Below are positions 8,470 through 52,491 of a stretch of 64,000 nt of DNA, piece after piece. The position numbers and the translations under genes are program-made. Within the stretch, counting starts at the first letter, position 1. Each line of letters starts with the position of its first letter. The stretch spans positions 35,537,501 through 35,601,500 of the forward strand of contig NC_091670.1 in the NCBI RefSeq assembly GCF_042453785.1. The letters run 5' to 3'. The notes below the pieces were generated by a model. The model had not been told where the DNA came from. It saw only the letters and a program-made list of their open reading frames with translations, and made no database searches. This stretch comes from Malus domestica (taxonomy: Eukaryota; Streptophyta; Magnoliopsida; Rosales; Rosaceae).

Positions 8470-11400
8470 ATGTCTAAAAGATCTATAAATGCGTTGGTCA
8501 ATGATGATAACAACAAAAAACAAACAAATAGTGATAATGAATATAATGTCTTGGTTCAGTGTGACCATCAGCCAAGAAAAGTGTGTAGAACCAGTTATCT
8601 TGAAAATCATGAAAACGCTGTTTTATCTCAGATTGATACATTTCTTCGAACTCCATATTTTAAACATCAGTGTAGTAGTAGTGGATCAGCTGTTGTACAA
8701 TGCGATTTGAAAAATGCTAATTATGATAAAGTGCAGCATACTGCATCTGTTGAAAAAATTGTTCAGCCTTCTGATCGAAAAGGTAAAAAACCTATTAATT
8801 TGTTGGATAATTCTGATAACATGGCTGAAACAACGATTGATCCTCAAAATTACAATCTTATGAACAAGGGCCAAGCATTCTTCCAGAAAAGCAGAACTGG
8901 TATGTTTTTTAATTTATATAAAAATATATTTCTGTTATCGTGTAAATTTATATTTAGTTTATTGCATATCTTTCCTAAGTCCCGTTTTCTTTCTTTTCTT
9001 TCCTGTGTATTTTTTTTGCAGGGGTTTTAAAAGATTATGTGGATTTTGGGGATAAGAATTATAAATGTAGTCACTGCGGTGCCTATTTTTGGTTGAAAGA
9101 GTCTCTTAAGCAAGTATGTAAAAAAGATGAACCTATTTTCACTCTTTGTTGTCAACAAGGAAAAATTGTTTTTCCAAATCCAAAACCAACACCGTCTTTT
9201 TTAGAATCTTTGCTTGATCCAAATGGTGGTCCAAAAAGTTTATCATTTCGAGAAAATATTAGAGCTTACAATTCTATGTTTTCATTTACTTCGATGGGAG
9301 CCAAAATTGATCACTCAATTAATGATGGTTCAGGTCCTTATATTTTCAAAATTAGTGGTCAAGTTTGCCATTTGATGGGATCTCTGTTGCCTGCTGACAA
9401 TGAGTGTCCAAAATTTGCACAATTATATGTCTATGATACATACAATGAAGTGCAAAATCGATTGAAGGCTTTTGAATCTGATGGAAATAATAGAAAGCTT
9501 GATCCAAAAATTGTTGAAGGTTTGATTAAGATGTTTGATATGTCAAATGAGTTAGTTAAGCTTTTTCGAACAGCAAGAGATAAGTTTGAAACTAATAGAC
9601 TCACTTCTTTGAAAATGAGATTATCAGCAAGAGAAACAACAGATGGTAAACAATATGACCAACCAACAAGTGATGAAATAAGTGGTCTGATAGTTGGTGA
9701 TATAGGACTTGCTGATTCTAATAGAGATATTATTATTGAGTCTAAAAGTGAAGGATTAAAGCGTGTTACAAAATTAAATCCAAAATTTATGTCTTTGCAA
9801 TATCCTCTTCTTTTCCCATACGGTGAAGATGGTTATAGACCTGATTTAAAATGGAACAAAAATTATAAGGGTTCAGAGACTAAAAGACAAAGGATACCCA
9901 TGAGAGCTTTTATAGCGTATCAAATTCAAGAACGAGAACCATGCTTAACAACATTGTTAAAAGGGGGGAGACTTTTTCAACAATATTTGGTTGATTCTTA
10001 TGCAACACTTGAAGAAGATAGGTTAGATTACATTAGGCAAAACCAAAAAAATTTAAGAAGTGAAGTTTACAAAGGAATTTATGATGCGATGTCAAGGGGT
10101 GATAATGATGCAAACAATTTGGGACAAAAAATTGTATTGCCTGCTTCATACACAGGGAGTCCTAGATATATGATTAATAATTATCAAGATGCAATGGCTA
10201 TTTGCAGAGAATATGGACATCCTGATTTATTCATAACATTCACATGCAATATAAAGTGGCCAGAAATCATAAGAGAATTTCAGAAAAAACCAGGATTCAA
10301 ACCTGAAGATAGGCCTGATATAATTTCCAGAGTATTTAAAATGAAACTCGATGATATGCTTCACTTTATAAAATCTGGAAAACCTTTTGGAGAAGTTGAA
10401 GCAAGTAAGTCTCTAAGAGTCCTTCTTTTCCTTTATTAATGTTTATTTATTTTTTTCTGACCTAACATAATTTGTTTTCTCTGTTTGTTTGTTTTCTTTT
10501 ATTTTTCTTATAAACAGATGTTTGCACGATTGAATTTCAAAAAAGAGGTTTGCCTCATTCTCATATATTAATATGGTTAAAATCAAACTTCAAGTGTCAT
10601 TCCTCATGTGATATAGATTCTATTATTTCAGCTGAAATACCGGATAAAATTGTTAATCCAAAGCTTTATGAAATTGTTAATCAATTTATGATTCATGGTC
10701 CATGTGGTCACATTAATTCAAAGTCTCCTTGCATGCGAGAAAATAAGTGTTCAAAAAATTTTCCAAAACCATATAAAAATGAAACACTATTTGAGCCTAA
10801 TGGTTTTCCAATTTATAAGCGTTGCGACGATGATACAAAATTTTTCATAAAAAATGGCATCAAAATTGATAATAGCTTTGTTGTTCCTTATAATGCAGAA
10901 CTACTTTTGAGATACAATGCTCATATAAATGTTGAATCATGTTGTCAATCTATGCTTATAAAGTATTTGTTCAAATACATTAATAAAGGTTCAGATAGAG
11001 CACGGTTACTTCTTCAAGAAGATTCAAATGATGAAATATTAGCATATCTCAATTGTAGATACATATCACCATATGAGGCTGTTTGGAGATTGTTCCAATA
11101 TTCAATACATTATAGAGAACCTTCTGTTGAGCGATTACCTGTCCATTTACCATTAGAACAAAACATTGTTTTCAGTGGTAATCAATCATTGGAATCAATT
11201 ATTAATCGAAGAGCTTCTGAACATACTATGTTAACAGCTTGGTTTGAAGCAAATAAAATTTATAATGAATCACGCTTGCTAACTTATGCTCAGATGCCAT
11301 CCAAGTTTTTATATGATGGACGACAGAAGTTTTGGAAGCCAAGGAAACGCAAAGGATCAATTGGTAGGATAGCATATGTGCACCCTGCATCTGGTGAGTT

Positions 11401-13399
11401 ATATTATTTAAGAATGCTTTTAAATTTGAAAAAAGGTGCATTGAATTTTGATGATATCAAAACTGTTAATGGTGTTCTCCATTCTTCATATCAAGCTGCA
11501 TGTAAATCATTAGGATTATTAGGTGATGATAAAGAATGGTTAGATGCTTTATCAACTGCTACACATGTTGCATCATCTCCTCAGTTAAGACAATTATTTG
11601 TTACAATAGTTTTGTTTTGCAATGTTGCAAATCCTGAAATTCTTTTTGACACTCATTGGAAAAATATGTATGACGATATTTTATACAAGCTGCAAAAAAC
11701 TTTTGCAATTCCTAATATGATTGTTCCGGAAGATGAACTAAAAAATTCTGTCTTATTTGAGCTAGAATTACTTTTTAACAATGCATCTAGCTCTTTGCAA
11801 AAACATTGTTTGCCAATGCCTGATGAAAAAAAGATGCTAGAAATAAAAAATAAACTTTTAACAGAAGAATTAAATTATGATTGTCAAGAATTATATAGAA
11901 AACATGAAATATTGAAATCACAACTTAATGAAGAACAAAAATATGTATATGATACTGTTATAGATACTGTAAATACAAGAAAACAAGGATTATTTTTTGT
12001 CTATGGCCATGGAGGTACTGGAAAAACATTTTTATGGGATACAATTATAAGTAAGCTTAGATCTGAAGGCAAAATTGTTTTAGCTGTGGCATCATCAGGA
12101 ATAGCATCATTATTATTACCAAATGGTAGAACAGCTCACTCTAGGTTTAAAATTCCGTTGGTTATTACTGATACATCAATTTGTCCAATAAAGAAAAAAA
12201 CTCATCTTGCCACATTAATTGAAAAAACTGATTTGATTATATGGGATGAGGCACCTATGAATCATAAATATTGTTTTGAAGCATTGGATAAATCACTTTC
12301 TGATATTCTATCACATTTACATGCTCCGAATAACATTGTTCCATTTGGTGGTAAACCCCTTTTATTAGGAGGTGATTTTCGACAAATATTACCTGTTATT
12401 CCTGGAGCAAACAAAGAAGATATAATAAATGCTTCTTTAAACAATTCTTATTTGTGGCCACATTTTAAAATTTTTCGTTTAAAAGAAAATATGAGGTTGT
12501 TAAGAAATGATATAAGCATTGATGAAAAACAAAAAATCAAAGATTTTGCAAATTGGATTTTAAAAGTAGGTGATGGAGAAATTGATAACATAGATGCACT
12601 AAATGATTCAAATGACATTGATACATCTGTGATTGAAATACCTAAAGATTTAATAATCCATTCTTCCACAAACCCAATTGCTGCAATCTTTTGTGCAACT
12701 TTTCCCAATTTTGAAAATTCTTTTGACGATTTTGTATATCTAAGAGAACGAGCTATTATTACACCTCGAAACACAACTGTGTCGGATGTAAATGATTATA
12801 TAACTAATTTATTACCTAGAGAACATCATACATTTTTAAGTTATGATTCTTTGTGTTCTTCAAATGGAAATTTTGAAAATCTTGAAACAATGTATCCTAC
12901 AGAATTTTTAAACAAACTTGATTTCAACGGTTTGCCTACACACAATCTCATTTTAAAAGTGGGAATGCCAATTATGTTATTACGAAATTTAAACCAATCT
13001 TTGGGTTTATGCAATGGAACTAGATTGATTGTGACACAATTATTTGATAGAATTATTGAGGCTAAAATTCTTGCTGGAACTAATATTGGTCACAAAGTTT
13101 TCATACCAAGAATCACTCTTGCAGCAACTGAAAGCAAATGGCCTTTTATTTTCAAAAGACGCCAATTTCCAGTTAGACCATGTTATGCAATGACCATTAA
13201 TAAAAGCCAAGGACAATCTTTGAAACAAGTTGGATTATATCTTCCTGAACCTGTTTTTACTCATGGTCAATTATATGTTGCATTATCTAGAGTTACATCA
13301 AGAAAAGGTTTAAAAATATTGATAGGAAATGGAGAAAACAATTTAAACAATTATACAAAAAATATAGTATTTAAAGACGTGTTACAAAATTTACAATAA
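8470..13399 (+). CDS. Helitron Rep/PIF1-type helicase (1,564 aa, three exons)
   Basis: Replication initiator plus 5'-3' helicase that drives rolling-circle transposition. Exons 8470-8899, 9022-10404 and 10518-13399 join in frame with GT..AG introns (120 and 113 nt); the total of 4,695 nt has no internal stop. In order: a CHCG-type zinc-finger-like region (around residues 150-180); the Helitron N domain with DLFITFTCN; the Rep HUH motif GLPHSHILIWL (about 615-625), in which the second position is Ser (H-S-H) rather than the usual Ala; the two-tyrosine motif KYLFKYINKG (about 753-762); then PIF1 helicase with Walker A YGHGGTGKTF (about 1100), Walker B IIWDEAPM (about 1180), GGDFRQILPV, and the C-terminal INKSQGQSL and LYVALSRVTS motifs. 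Length and architecture are those of full plant Helitron proteins. It carries no RPA-like gene alongside. Catalytic residues look present, so activity is possible but untested. Confidence 0.92.
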
Positions 13400-44866: not shown

Positions 44867-47800
44867 TCATTTGTCATTTGTGTTCAAGTACAGACGATGA
44901 TCTCTAACGTAATCAATTACTTCATCTGCAGTCAGATATTTTATTGACAATCCTCTTGAAATGCAATCCCTGAAAAACAATGTAAATTATCAATTCAACA
45001 TTCCCTAAACATTTCTGTCAATGAATCAGATTGTCTTTACCTTACTCTCGTTGAACTTATTTGGTTCGGTACAAGTTCATCCACAACTTTTATGTTACCC
45101 TACAAAAGAAGAAAAAGGTTTAATAGCATCAATGAGGCCACAAGCAGTGGACTGTAAGAAGTTTCAAACCAAAACTATTCAGGCAACAAAAGGTTTTACA
45201 CTTTGCAAACTTCGAATCACTACGAAATTTTTTGCTTTTCAATTTAGACCAAATTCTACCCTTTTACAGCACAATCCGAATAATTTGGTTAACTTATATT
45301 CAGATTTGAAAACTACATGAGAATAACACCATTGTGGACGCTAGTTAAACTAACCAGTCTAATATAGGTATAGCTAAAAAACCCAGTGTTATAACGCTGA
45401 ATGAGATTTGATTGATCATTACAATTCACGAGCCCGAAAGCAATGGTAAATCAACTTACTTTGTTCTCTTTCAAAATTTCATCATTTGAGATAATTTTGT
45501 CAACATCTTGTCCATCCCTGCGAATGGAAACCACACCATAATCTCCACGTATGCTTCTCACCTGATAAATAAGAGCAAGAATCTGGACAATGAGATGATT
45601 ATCTTGCATGAATCGACTATATATGACCACCGTAATATTGAATTATAGACAGACCTGCTCAGGAATCCAAAATCCAGGAATGACAAAAGACTGGAGTAGA
45701 TCAGAACCACATACAAGCATGCACTTGAGGGATTCTATCACGAGCAAGACACAAAAGTCAATCGTATTGCCATCCAAAATTAACAATGATGATGTAGAAC
45801 TGAAACCAGCTCCAGAATTATCATGCATCAAATTGATTACACAAAGTCCGTAAAACGAAATTTGTGTTGAGTGTCAGCACTGCTGCTTATGGATGGATTC
45901 GATGGACTAAGAGCCTCAAACACCAATATGACAAAGCCTTCCTGACAAACTTCCTATGATGTTACAGCCATACAGTTTTGGGAAAGAACATGTGCACAGT
46001 GCATGTGTGCTTTGCATCTATACCTTCTCCATGCATACATATAACTTACTAAAAAAAAAAAAGCTGCCGGTGCAGCTTAATTGCTCAAACGGAAAATAAG
46101 GGATAACAGTTTGCAAATCTTACCACTTGGTATCATACCAGCCTCAGACAAGAAACCCTTGACTCTAGATAGAACAGTTAAGGTGCGCTGGAAGCTACTT
46201 TGTCTTGCCTGTAAAATCAATTTATAACTTCTATGCATAAGTACACAGAACCCTAGCGGTAGTAAATAAATAAGACACAGAACCACATACAGAATCATCA
46301 TCTAAGATTCTAAAGAATTTTTGTGGTGGAGAAGGAGGGACATACCTCCCACGGATCAACCATTATAAATTCTGAACTCTTGCAAGCTAGATGACACATC
46401 TGTACACGATGTTCAGCAGATATAAGTCCCTACATAGCCAACCAAGTGACCATCTCAGTATGTGGCAACAGAGGGATGTGATACCTGATTATGTAATTTA
46501 GTTATAGCACTTCACTAGCATAAAGTGGTAAAAATGTTAGCATACAGACTATGATCTTGTATGAGTGTTTCAATCAATTTATATATATTGAAGAAAGGAA
46601 GAGAGTAAGAAATCTAGAGAGAGAGTGAGAGAATTCTGCTTGGGAAGAAGAAACAAACTCTACACACTGTTTCATTCATTCACACACACTTAGCACATGT
46701 AGCAAGAGGAAATATTAATTAATCTAAGATTACATCTTAGCTGCACACTTGGACTATGATCCAAGGGCTGATATTTAAAACTGACTTCTTATTATATTTC
46801 AGCAAATACACTTATAAACTAACACTCCCTTCTAAGTGATGTGCTGAAATCACTCCCAAAGCTGTCCTCAGTACTTCAAATCGATCCCTTGCCAAAGTTT
46901 TAGTGAATATATCTGCAACCTGCTCCTCAGTCTTGCAGTATACCAGATCAATCTCACCATCTTGAAGTGCATCTCGGATGAAATGAAATTTCCGATTAAT
47001 GTGCCTGGTTTTGTGATGATGGACTGGATTCTTTGATATGGCAATTGCTGAAGTATTATCACACAGCAACTTAGTTGGTTCTGCTTGTTCTTCCCCAAAA
47101 TCAGAGAGTACAAATCTTAGCCAAATGGCCTGTGCAGTAGCTTCTGCTGCACTGATGTATTCTGCCTCTGCAGTTGAAAGAGCAACACTGCTTTGTTTGA
47201 TTGAGGCCCAAGAAAACACACCAGAACCAAGATTGAATGCATAGCCAGATGTACTCCTCATATCATCTTCACTTCCACTCCAATCACTATCACAATAACC
47301 AACCAACACTGCTCCTTTTCCCTTTTCATAGACCACTCCATAGTTCACAGTGCCTTGTATGTATCTCAGAACTCTCTTAGCTGTCCCCATATGCTTCTTG
47401 GTAGGATTGTGCATAAACCTAGCCAATAAGCCTGCTGCAAACATAATATCTGGCCTTGTTGCTGTCAAATATAGCAAACTTCCCACCATTTGTCTATATA
47501 AAGTCTCATCTGCCAGATCACTTCCATCTATTTTTGTAAGTTTTTCATTCATAGCTAATGGTGTTGCAACCGGCTTACAATCCCTAAGTCCAAATTTCTC
47601 AAGCAAAGTCTTTGCATATTTCTTTTGATGCAAGAAGATGTAATTATCTGTTTGCAATACCCCAAGACCAAGGAAATGATGAAGTAATCCTAGATCAGTC
47701 ATTTCATATTGTCTCATCATCTCACCTTTAAACTCAGCTATCATCTCTTTTGAACTCCCTGTGTAAATAATATCATCTACATACAGTGACACAATAAGAA

Positions 47801-50800
47801 TGCCACTGTAAGATGTCTTGATATAAAGAGTAGCTTCACTCGGACTTCTGTGGAATCCAGCCTTTGCAAAATAGGAATTTATTTCTTCATACCAAGCTCT
47901 TGGAGCTTGTTTCAAACCATATAAAGCTTTCCTGAGCCTGTACACTTTGTCTTCCTTGCCCTGTATAACAAAACCAGATGGTTGATCCACATACACCTCT
48001 TCATTCAACACTCCATTTAGAAATGCAGACTTTACATCTAACTGAAATAATTTCCATCCTTTCTGTGCAGCAAGGGCCACCAAGGTTCTCACAGTATCAA
48101 GTCTTGCCACAGGTGCAAAAGTTTCATTGAAATCGATTCCAGGCTTCTGAGAGTACCCCTTTGCAACCAACCGTGCTTTGTTTTTCTGCACTGAACCATC
48201 CAGATTTAGTTTTGTTTTATAAACCCATTTGACTCCAATGATTGGTTTATCAAATGGTCTATCAACAAGATCCCAAGTATGATTCTTCTCAATCATAGGG
48301 ATTTCATCTTCCATAGCCTTCTGCCATGATTCATCCTTGGCAGCCTCTTCAAAACATTCGGGTTCTATTATGCACAGATTACACTTTTCATATATTTCTG
48401 CAATGTTTCTATACTTGAGAGGAGTGTGATCAAAATCCTGTGGACCTGTCACTCTTTCTTGATCAGATAGCTCAGTAACTAAATCTGACCCAACATTCTC
48501 TTCACTGACTTCACATTGTGTTTCAGAATCACAAGCACTTCCTTCACAGTTTTGTTCTCCTGCAGACATTTCAAAGATCTGGATACTCTCCCTTCTTTCC
48601 TTCTGTGCATTCCAATCCCAACATGCTTCTTCATTAAACACAACATCTCTGGAAATAGTCACCTTTCCAGATTCAATGTTATACAGTCTATATCCCTTTT
48701 CACAACTACCATATCCCAAGAAAACACACCTCTTGCTTGCCAAATCGAGTTTTTGTCTCTGTTGACTTGGTACATGAGCATAACACAAAGAACCAAACAC
48801 TTTTAGATGCTTAATTCCTGGTTTTCTCCCACTGTAAGCTTCAAAAGGTGTCTTCTTATGTAAGGCTTTGGTTGGGCATCGATTCAGAATGTACACAGAG
48901 GTATTGACTGCCTCAGCCCAGAATTCAAGTGGAACCTTCTTCTCCAACATAAGACACTTAGCCATTTCCACGATGGTTCTGTTCTTTCGCTCTGCCACAC
49001 CGTTTTGCTGTGGTGTGTATGGAGTGGTAAGTTGTCTTTCCATGCCTACATCTTCAACAAACTTGTTAAACTCCATTGAAGTGTATTCACCTCCTCGATC
49101 ACTCCTAAGCTTTTTCAGATTATAACCACTCTGTAATTCCACAGTGACTTTGAACTTTTTAAACACACTGAGAACTTCAGATTTATGCCTTAAAAAATAC
49201 ACCCAACACATTCGGGTACAATCATCTATGAAAGTAAGAAAATATCTATTTCCAGCTTTTGTAGTTTTCTGCATTGGACCACAAATGTCACTATGCACAA
49301 GCTCTAGAGGAATTGCAGCTCTAGTATTAGCTTCCTTTGGAAATGCTTCTCTACATTGTTTGCCGAGAACACAACCTTCACATACTCCTTTAGCTACTTT
49401 GATTTCTGGTAATCCTACTACCATTTCTTGTTCCTGCATCAATTTCAAACTGCTCAGGTTTAGGTGTCCCAACCTTTTATGCCACATAGTAGTAGAAGCA
49501 CATACATTTGCCTTGAAAGCAATATGTATTCCAGTCTGTAATTTCATTGGAAAACTTCGATTTCCCTTCATTGGAACTTTAGCAACCATGTTGGAATATG
49601 AACTGTCATCATAGATTTCCACCTTGTGACCTCCAAACACTAAATAATAACCGTGCTCCATCATTTGACCCACACTGAGCAAATTTTCCTTCAGTCCAGG
49701 CACAAGCATAACCTCCTTGATATATCTCTTGCCTAGTTTAGTTTCAACTACAAGACTCCCTTTACCAGTTACATCAACAAGCTGTCCAGTACCCATTTCA
49801 ACTTTTGCAGTTACATTCCTATCAATATCCACAAGTAAATCCTCCCTTCCAGTCATATGATTGCTACACCCACTATCTACATACCATACATCATCACAGT
49901 CCTTTACACTAGTAAAAGTTTGATTACTAGCATAAAACATGGTGGGTGTAGATTCTACCTTGTTTGCATAATTGAGCTGTTGCACTGGTTTCTTGCTATT
50001 ACAATCCCTTGCAATATGACCAAACTTATCACAGTTATAACATTTTGGTTTACCCTTGAATCGGCATTCACCAAAATGTAGCTTATCACAATGTTTACAA
50101 GGATTTCTAGCACCATCAGTGGGTTTGTTATCCCACCTCTTCCCTTTTTCTTTCCAATTCTTATGATACCTTGCACTTTGATTTCCTGTGAATTTAGCTG
50201 GTTTGGGATTTACATTGAGACTAGCAAATGCTTTCTCAGTTTTGTGCTCAGAATGTCTATCTAGACGTAGCTCAAAACTCTTCAAGGAAGCAACCACTTC
50301 TTGTACCTCAATCACATCCAAATCTTTCGAATGCTCAATAACAGAACAGATAGAGTCATAAGCTGATGGCAAACTGATTAATAATTTCTGAACAACTCTC
50401 TCTCGAGATAATTCCTCTCCATAGCTCTGCATTTGATTTATCAGATCAAATAGTTTTGTAAGATAAACAGAAAGTGATTCATCATCTCGCATTCGGGTAT
50501 ATTCAAATTCCCTACGAAGACCTTGCAATTTAACACTTCTAACCTGTTTATCACCGTGGTATTCTTGCTGCAGAATGTCCCATGCGCCTTTTGAAGTTTC
50601 TTCATGAGAGATTCTGGGAAATATCTCATCTGAAACAGCGCCCTGAATCAGACCCAGAGCTTTAGCATCCTTCATGAGCACCTCAACAAGCGTCATCCTC
50701 CCAGCACCACTAGACTCTTCTTTGTCTTTCTTCTTCGCCTCAGATTCATCAATCTTCTTCATATCTGATTCATCGAAACCCTTTTCAACCAAATTCCACA

Positions 50801-52491
50801 ATCCGTAGGACTTGAAAATGGTCTTCATCTTAATACTCCAGAACTCATAATTTTCACCATTGAAAATTGGTGCTCTCACCTCACCACTACCCGATCCTGC
50901 CATGTTAGACTCAGATCGCAATCAACTCGATCGCAGCTTTGAGTTGCTGGGTAGCTCTCTTCACAGATCCAAACGCCCAGTATCAATTGATCGAACACAG
51001 CTCTGAGGCCATGTTAGCATACAGACTATGATCTTGTATGAGTGTTTCAATCAATTTATATATATTGAAGAAAGGAAGAGAGTAAGAAATCTAGAGAGAG
51101 AGTGAGAGAATTCTGCTTGGGAAGAAGAAACAAACTCTGCACACTGTTTCATTCATTCACACACACTTAGCACATGTAGCAAGAGGAAATATTAATTAAT
51201 CTAAGATTACATCTTAGCTGCACACTTGGACTATGATCCAAGGGCTGATATTTAAAACTGACTTCTTATTATATTTCAGCAAATACACTTATAAACTAAC
51301 AAAAAAAACCTCATAACTGAGACAAACTCATTAAAGTAACTTTTGTTATAACTTTAATCGTGTTGCTTCTACAACGCCGGTTAAAAGGGTCATGGAAGAA
51401 CTTGAGGTATATGACCAACTTCCTAATGTAGCCTCATCTCAGAAATGTAGCCTCATCTCAGAACTTTGGTCGGTACCGCTGTGCATATTGTGCACTTAAC
51501 ATTGAGCATATAAAAGCTTTTTCTACTACGATGCCTACAGAGATGCTATTAAGGTTACAAACCTTCTTGTTGTATGCATCATTAACAGGCGAAATATAAG
51601 CTCCAATTACACAAAAGCCTTCTGAATTTAGTGCATCTCTTGCCAGCTCTGTTGACAAGAACAAAATTGGTCGAAATATAAATTATAAACTGTAATTTCC
51701 ACTGAAAACTAAGTAAAAGATCCAAAGTCACAATTAGAAAATGAAACCCACGAGGCAATGACCCGGTCCAAAAAAGAGAGTGCATTTTGCATATATGTAA
51801 ATTCCTAATTTAGCTGTCAAATGAGAAATAAATTTAGAACTTGTTTGAAAGTGCTTTTAAAGCAGTTGAAAGCGCTTCTGGTGAAAATGTTTGTGGAACA
51901 TCCTTCGTAAAAATGCAATTGAATCCTGAAAAAGCACTTTAGAACCCAAAAACATTTTCGCTAAAAGTGCTTTCAGTCATTTTAAAAGAACTTCCAAACA
52001 AGCCCTTAGTTTGTGCTGCAACTTACCCAACATTCGTAAATGCATATAGGTAGGAGGATTGAAACTTCCAGTTGCTACTAGAACTACGTACTTCTTGTCC
52101 CTAGTTTAGAGAGAGAAAGAGTGAGCTAACGTATTTACAAAAACATTACACCTTATGGTACGAACTTTGTCAACATTAACATAATAACATCCATGCTGGA
52201 AATTTAACAAACAAATGCAATTCTCCGAAAACTAAAAGGTAATGCAATTTCTACTGCAAGCTAAAATCTAATGTCTTTAAGCTATACGTTTATGTATTCC
52301 TTCCAGTTCCTTCTATCATCCTGCTAAAGTTGAAGCAAAATTCAATCTTCGAAAGCCAGACATGTTCGGTATCTCAAACGATACAAATACAAGCAAAAAC
52401 ATCAATAAATAAAACTGATAAAGTGAACTTACTTGTCATCGTGATTAACCAAATGCAGAGCTAATTTATGAACAGGCAGAGGGATGTCCAT
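44867..52491 (-). CDS. NMNAT: Nicotinamide/nicotinate mononucleotide adenylyltransferase (243 aa, nine exons)
   Basis: Joins ATP to NMN or NaMN to make NAD or deamido-NAD, the step shared by de novo and salvage NAD synthesis. Minus-strand exons: 52491-52433, 52100-52027, 51648-51563, 46429-46346, 46208-46124, 45734-45655, 45561-45460, 45099-45041, 44969-44867; 732 nt, every junction GT..AG and in phase. The protein opens [15 protein letters not shown]. Motifs: [18 protein letters not shown] (the GSFNPxTxxHL nucleotidyltransferase signature), [29 protein letters not shown] with [46 protein letters not shown], and near the C-terminus [10 protein letters not shown] (the ISSTxxR motif). Length equals the Arabidopsis enzyme closely. 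Intron 3 is about 5.1 kb because a copia element is inserted there; the exons are undamaged. An untranslated exon probably lies at about 53030-53220. Confidence 0.93.
46535..46824 (-). repeat. Copia 3' LTR
   Basis: 290 bp. Contains the stop codon of the polyprotein at 46812-46814, so the frame ends inside the LTR. Confidence 0.95.
46812..50903 (-). CDS. Copia gag-pol polyprotein (1,363 aa), intact
   Basis: One uninterrupted frame from the ATG at 50901-50903. Order of domains is the copia order: gag (UBN2-like, opening [19 protein letters not shown]); CCHC zinc knuckle [14 protein letters not shown] (about 287-300); aspartic protease motif [13 protein letters not shown] (about 338); GAG-pre-integrase [13 protein letters not shown] with CEGCVLGKQ; integrase core with [15 protein letters not shown] and [14 protein letters not shown]; reverse transcriptase with [34 protein letters not shown] and catalytic [10 protein letters not shown] (about 1040); RNase H with GYCDSDWSG (about 1204) and [13 protein letters not shown]. 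Catalytic residues are visible in all enzymes. A frame extension upstream of the ATG uses no ATG. Confidence 0.96.
51012..51301 (-). repeat. Copia 5' LTR
   Basis: 290 bp, one difference from its partner. Contains a 'tatatatatt' stretch that may serve as the promoter TATA. Confidence 0.95.
51838..52005. mobile_element. Foldback MITE (GGGCTTGTTTGGAAG ends) in NMNAT intron 2
   Basis: The left end GAACTTGTTTGAAAGTGCTT and the right end ('agaacttccaaacaagccc' in plus) are inverted, with inner arms 'aaaatgtttgtgg' and 'aaaaacattttcgc'. A related diverged copy occurs at 61657-61850. It lies between coding exons 2 and 3 of NMNAT (intron 51649-52026). Confidence 0.75.

Follow-up and report, generated by a model that had tools for sequence, protein, structure and literature searches.

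A complete copia retrotransposon in sense orientation within intron 3 of one of two apple NMNAT genes, probably tolerated through splicing of the whole intron

The stretch of DNA examined here (the window: 64,000 nucleotides of Malus domestica contig NC_091670.1, positions 35,537,501 to 35,601,500 of the forward strand, assembly GCF_042453785.1) carries on its minus strand a gene for nicotinate mononucleotide adenylyltransferase (NMNAT), whose third intron contains a complete Ty1/copia retrotransposon with long terminal repeats (LTRs). The presence of a complete copia element in intron 3 is far beyond chance. Insertion of copia elements into introns is a well-known kind of event, with the intact intronic copia elements of Arabidopsis as precedents. 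The features of the locus, in window coordinates, are as follows.

44867..52491, minus strand: NMNAT coding region, nine exons, 243 amino acids, eight introns all GT-AG (spliced translation, profile and structure matches)
46430..51562, minus strand: intron 3 of NMNAT, 5,133 bp (exon model)
46535..51301, minus strand: complete Ty1/copia LTR retrotransposon, 4,767 bp (LTRs, target-site duplication, open gag-pol frame)
51302..51306, unstranded: copy of the target-site duplication, AAAAA (flank comparison)
51012..51301, minus strand: 5' LTR, 290 bp, TGTTAG...CTAACA (repeat comparison)
51000..51011, minus strand: primer-binding site (PBS) TGGCCTCAGAGC, 2 of 12 positions off the usual TGGTATCAGAGC (adjoins the 5' LTR)
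46812..50903, minus strand: gag-pol open frame, 1,363 codons, ATG at 50903 to stop at 46812, final 13 nt inside the 3' LTR (open reading frame)
49914..50903, minus strand: gag piece with CCHC zinc knuckle (PF14223, E 2.8e-33; PF00098)
49464..49946, minus strand: protease piece (DSGC motif) with Pol_BBD (PF22936; motif)
48624..49496, minus strand: integrase piece with zinc-binding and three acidic-site motifs (PF13976, PF00665, PF25597; motifs; 7z0h_W)
47454..48266, minus strand: reverse transcriptase piece, YVDD (PF07727, E 7.2e-81)
46815..47486, minus strand: RNase H piece (motifs only)
46825..46833, minus strand: polypurine tract AGAAGGGAG (directly before the 3' LTR)
46535..46824, minus strand: 3' LTR, 290 bp, with one C-to-T difference at 46662 (repeat and family comparison)
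46530..46534, unstranded: copy of the target-site duplication, AAAAA (flank comparison)

The LTRs have the TG...CA ends of copia elements and are bordered by a 5-bp target duplication. As direct repeats of 290 bp they differ, in the letters of the window, at a single position (46662 A versus 51139 G), exactly as the original prediction had counted; the repeat can also be read as 291 bp long, since a base of the target duplication happens to match the base with which the PBS starts on the opposite side. The polypurine tract is AGAAGGGAG in 13 of the 14 copies of the family described below and AGAATGGAG in the remaining one. Element and gene both lie on the minus strand, in agreement with the earlier claim of a shared orientation, and the insertion is therefore in the sense direction. 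The rest of the window yielded no further copy when searched by blastn with the LTR and two inner pieces and by tblastn with the reverse transcriptase and integrase pieces, and the LTR had no match among plasmid records.

The whole polyprotein frame that had been claimed for an intact element is present. It was searched piecewise against Pfam and against chains of solved structures, and Pfam matches were obtained for copia gag, zinc knuckle, Pol_BBD, gag pre-integrase, integrase core, SH3-like, and RVT_2; Pfam left only two pieces unmatched, the RNase H piece and a linker piece (48204-48656). The top solved-structure match of the integrase piece was 7z0h_W, labelled 'Integrase' (E 1.2e-20), which we take to be Ty1 integrase. 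The reverse transcriptase piece had no solved-structure match and the RNase H piece no relevant one, while the six matches of the reverse transcriptase piece to viral contigs were pattern matches, none of them a relative. Every motif sought, using patterns from general knowledge, was present (CCHC, DSGC, the zinc-binding pattern, the integrase acidic sites, YVDD, and the RNase H motifs). The domain order is that of copia elements, gag-protease-integrase-reverse transcriptase-RNase H; gag, integrase, and reverse transcriptase are ordered by Pfam, and the protease active site and RNase H are placed by motifs only.

The host had been named as the NAD-biosynthesis gene NMNAT, and its 243-amino acid product bears this out, matching PF01467 (E 9.6e-19), scoring above the cut-off of TIGR00482, and matching the solved NMNAT chain 9rpk_A (1.1e-106), which presumably is the Arabidopsis enzyme. 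The insertion had also been assigned to intron 3, correctly; however, the coordinates then given to the element, 46430-51562, are exactly those of the intron, and the element itself occupies 46535-51301. Intron 3 without the element and one copy of the target duplication measures 361 bp, and the seven other NMNAT introns 71-389 bp. From the splice donor to the element is 261 bp and from the element to the acceptor 105 bp, and both splice sites are intact. The native part of the intron also holds a perfect 19-bp tandem duplication (51425-51463). A literature search combining nicotinate mononucleotide adenylyltransferase, retrotransposon, and intron found nothing.

The genome searched comprised 651 Mb in 19 contigs, designated here by C and a number, with the window in C10. 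Sixteen exon-level NMNAT matches came from 17 candidates, eight of them in C10 (the gene of the window) and eight in C5. The C5 gene (38519188-38516166, minus strand) has nine exons, GT-AG introns, and an intact frame of 243 amino acids, identical to that of C10 at 222 residues; its intron 3, of 328 bp, aligns with the emptied intron of the window and has no element inside. Judged by these gene models, an intact C5 copy free of the insertion makes the insertion in C10 less alarming. A pair of duplicates in C5 and C10, like the chromosome-sized contigs numbered up to at least C17, accords with an apple-like genome. The C5 protein is altered at otherwise conserved sites (P99Q in VDPWE, A29S), where the C10 protein keeps the Arabidopsis residue.

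Arabidopsis has a single NMNAT gene (PMC12178909), and deficiency of NMNAT expression in plants leads to non-viable pollen (PMC6900047, citing other work). The original prediction had argued that an essential gene implies either heterozygosity of the insertion or correct splicing, an argument that overlooks the C5 copy. With two NMNAT genes in the genome the insertion need not be heterozygous, and heterozygosity would give no shelter to a gene needed in pollen, because pollen with a broken allele is haploid; on these two grounds the idea that essentiality forces heterozygosity was rejected.

The original prediction had also proposed a genome survey for identical copies. The LTR search scored 40 of 97 candidates and returned at least 46 matches, and all family counts are lower bounds. 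The family set consists of all 14 listed LTR pairs with approximately full-length spacing and an identity of at least 83% over the whole LTR, that is, the window copy and at least 13 more; copies are designated by contig and, where needed, position in Mb. C15:26.36 is counted, though it is ~130 bp longer, while the single LTRs C3, C12:23.28, and C2:6.82 and a sister group with a partial LTR match (C9:29.6, C14, C12:22.29, C1, C4:20.2) are omitted. The 5' LTR of the window is exactly that of C15:33.99 and C4 and equals that of C13 bar one 2-bp indel; at the other extreme, LTRs among the 14 copies are up to ~13% different from those of the window. A 5-bp target duplication borders 13 of the 14 (the exception is C10:27.42). 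Mismatches between the LTRs of one copy number 0-2 per ~290 in nine close copies and 1-5 per ~280 in five older ones, and LTR indels occur within C13, C7:2.46, and C9:2.81.

The T in the 3' LTR of the window is absent from the other 13 copies; the site reads C in both LTRs for 11 of them and A for two. By this comparison it is the 3' LTR of the window that changed, by a C-to-T substitution within CAG, as would be expected of deamination of a methylated cytosine, although a single event is no proof. Compared with its three nearest copies over 2,400 inner bases (1,200 from each end), the window copy is different at 7-10 positions, six of them private to it, and over the 813-base reverse transcriptase piece the same three copies are 1-2 bases different. 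The ratio of nonsynonymous to synonymous substitution (dN/dS) in this piece is 0.06-0.09 against the five older copies, at dS 0.10-0.13, and selection has therefore maintained the reverse transcriptase coding region; the ratio is 0.05 against a divergent copy in C16, 0-0.27 against the three nearest copies, and 0.14-0.41 against four copies only 5-7 bases apart, where the value means little. Stops occur in the piece in 3 of the 13 other copies. Taken from these sequence counts, the family is small and was active until recently or is still moving.

Some members and relatives of the family are unusual in other ways. The copy at C16:25.25 Mb has LTRs 97% like those of the window, yet its reverse transcriptase piece differs at 82 of 813 bases (dS ~0.5), as if it had recombined between element lineages. 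The single LTRs at C3:31.48 Mb and C2:6.82 Mb have matching 5-mers at their flanks and are likely solo LTRs of the family, and the single LTR C12:23.28 has a polypurine tract ahead of it.

The insertion had been called very young, and its youth is borne out; its LTRs are one base apart, and near-identical family copies exist elsewhere. One difference in 290 corresponds to 0.13 million years (My; 95% 0.003-0.75) at 1.3e-8 per site per year, the rate applied to pear elements in PMC4715297, and to 0.43 My (95% 0.011-2.43) at the Rosaceae rate of 4e-9 (PMC11197308). The age is ordinary, because copia elements in pear average 0.35 My at 1.3e-8 (PMC4715297). Precise dating by the LTR difference was rejected, as a single event spans the whole of one or the other interval depending on the rate.

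The PBS is the only part of the element that might surprise a specialist. Its 12 bases after the 5' LTR are identical in all 14 family copies, and 10 of the 12 agree with the complement of initiator tRNA-Met, with CC in place of TA at positions 4-5 in every copy. The bases that follow are CAGG in five copies, continuing the match to the tRNA, TGTG in six, and CTAG in three. Among 12 loci of the sister group, five PBSs were readable, beginning TGGCC in two, TAGCC in two, and TGGTA in one, so that four have CC at positions 4-5 and the fifth has the usual TA. The initiator tRNA sequence used for comparison is that of general knowledge. Reverse transcription copies the primer tRNA into the PBS, and each cycle should thus rewrite it; a departure at two bases that has stayed fixed while silent sites took up ~0.1 substitutions each suggests that the primer tRNA matches or that repair is biased. 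We advance only tentatively the proposal that the family primes with a variant or different tRNA pairing with TGGCCTCAGAGC, or keeps a mismatched PBS by way of an unusual second strand transfer. A tRNA scan of the window found none, and a literature search for the letters of the PBS returned no paper that, judged by its title, deals with LTR retrotransposons, which does not prove the PBS to be unknown. A conserved unusual PBS, if confirmed, would bear on the choice of tRNA primers by retrotransposons.

With regard to the host, it is probable that a recently mobile copia family inserted a full sense copy into intron 3 of one of two NMNAT genes, and that this is tolerated by splicing of the whole intron. 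The site where the sense copy landed in the one NMNAT duplicate is rich in A, and the complete 5.1-kb intron would be spliced out, so that the host tolerates the element. The element is probably methylated, and heterochromatin may help removal of the intron; in Arabidopsis and rice, methylation of introns that bear transposable elements keeps poly(A) from being added too early, by way of IBM2-type factors. Intron 3 would be a candidate for the class of heterochromatic introns under the control of IBM2, ASI1, and EDM2. A share of the transcripts may terminate within the 5' LTR and yield a truncated product of 107 amino acids, in which case the C5 copy could buffer the truncated C10 transcripts. 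In Arabidopsis, retrotransposons of ~5 kb are known from introns of genes such as AT1G11270, which holds an intact COPIA78 (PMC4417168), and in PMC12112155 exclusion as a whole was the commoner outcome for full-length insertions in introns.

An unlikely alternative is a damaging allele, in which the 5' LTR, being in sense orientation, cuts most NMNAT transcripts short and the plant depends on C5 or on an empty C10 allele. The orientation of the element fits this, and failure of heterochromatin factors causes premature poly(A) addition at intronic retrotransposons in Arabidopsis (PMC4417168), with a similar response to loss of OsIBM2 in rice (PMC7145194). In addition, read-through past exon 3 would add 34 residues before a stop at ~51460, upstream of the element. 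Poly(A) truncation by the element, raised in the original prediction, is possible on its sequence: neither LTR contains AATAAA (one occurs in the inner part of the element), though each has seven one-mismatch variants, where composition shuffles gave means of 3.3 and 3.6. The absence of AATAAA from the LTRs nevertheless counts against a damaging allele, as do the retention of all exons and splice sites by the C10 gene and the commoner whole exclusion in PMC12112155.

It is very improbable that the element is a helper, with promoter activity of the 3' LTR, or regulated use of a poly(A) site in the intron, now forming part of NMNAT regulation. The 3' LTR does have a TATA-like sequence and ends just 105 bp before exon 4, but a transcript started there would lack exons 1-3, which carry the conserved stretch GSFNPPT. 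The intronic retrotransposon of RPP7 offers a precedent (PMC4417168, PMC12112155), although the present one is probably too recent to have become much adapted. An assembly artefact, a repeat copy misplaced in the intron, could be imagined since near-identical copies exist elsewhere in the genome, but is hardly credible given the element's own target duplication, its private LTR base, and 6 of 2,400 inner bases unlike all three nearest copies.

Several points weigh against a recent insertion that is tolerated by whole-intron splicing. With a single LTR difference, the insertion could be anything from about zero to 2.4 My old. Ten of the 21 residue differences between C5 and C10 are informative against 9rpk, again taken to be Arabidopsis, and C10 keeps the 9rpk residue at seven of them and C5 at three; small as these counts are, they hint that the inserted copy may be the better kept and that buffering by C5 may be imperfect. 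Clean removal is also no rule, as seven expressed insertions partly exonized ONSEN sequence (PMC12112155). The locus is in any event a clean natural case for studying how a gene of a plant responds to a newly inserted retrotransposon in sense orientation, and the empty NMNAT duplicate in the same genome provides an internal control, the two copies being distinguishable in RNA.

Elsewhere in the window, a Helitron-type coding region (8979-13399) is split over two plus-strand frames with matches to Helitron_like_N and PIF1 helicase.

Among known systems, ATCOPIA78/ONSEN in AT1G11270 of Arabidopsis is likewise a full-length copia element whose frame is open and which sits in an intron of a gene that is expressed (PMC4417168, PMC12112155); its transcripts and methylation have been measured and chimeric LTR transcripts seen, whereas the apple element is known from sequence alone. 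RPP7 of Arabidopsis likewise has an intronic copia element of ~5 kb, named COPIA-R7 (PMC7529245), whose chromatin state affects read-through and the choice of poly(A) site (PMC4417168); however, RPP7 encodes an immune receptor and has in its element an established regulator, while the NMNAT element is young. The Ale-lineage elements Jc8 and Jc9 of Jatropha are similar in being ~5 kb long with short LTRs and no spacer between LTR and PBS, and pol of Jc8 also runs into the right LTR (PMC3852365). The likeness to the Ale lineage is an agreement in size and structure only. The nine Jatropha consensus sequences have the PBS TGGTATCAGAGC (PMC3852365), in contrast to TGGCCTCAGAGC in the family of the window. 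A copia element within the alpha-SNAP gene of soybean Rhg1 (PMC6712407) likewise lies in a host gene of a crop, though a different one.

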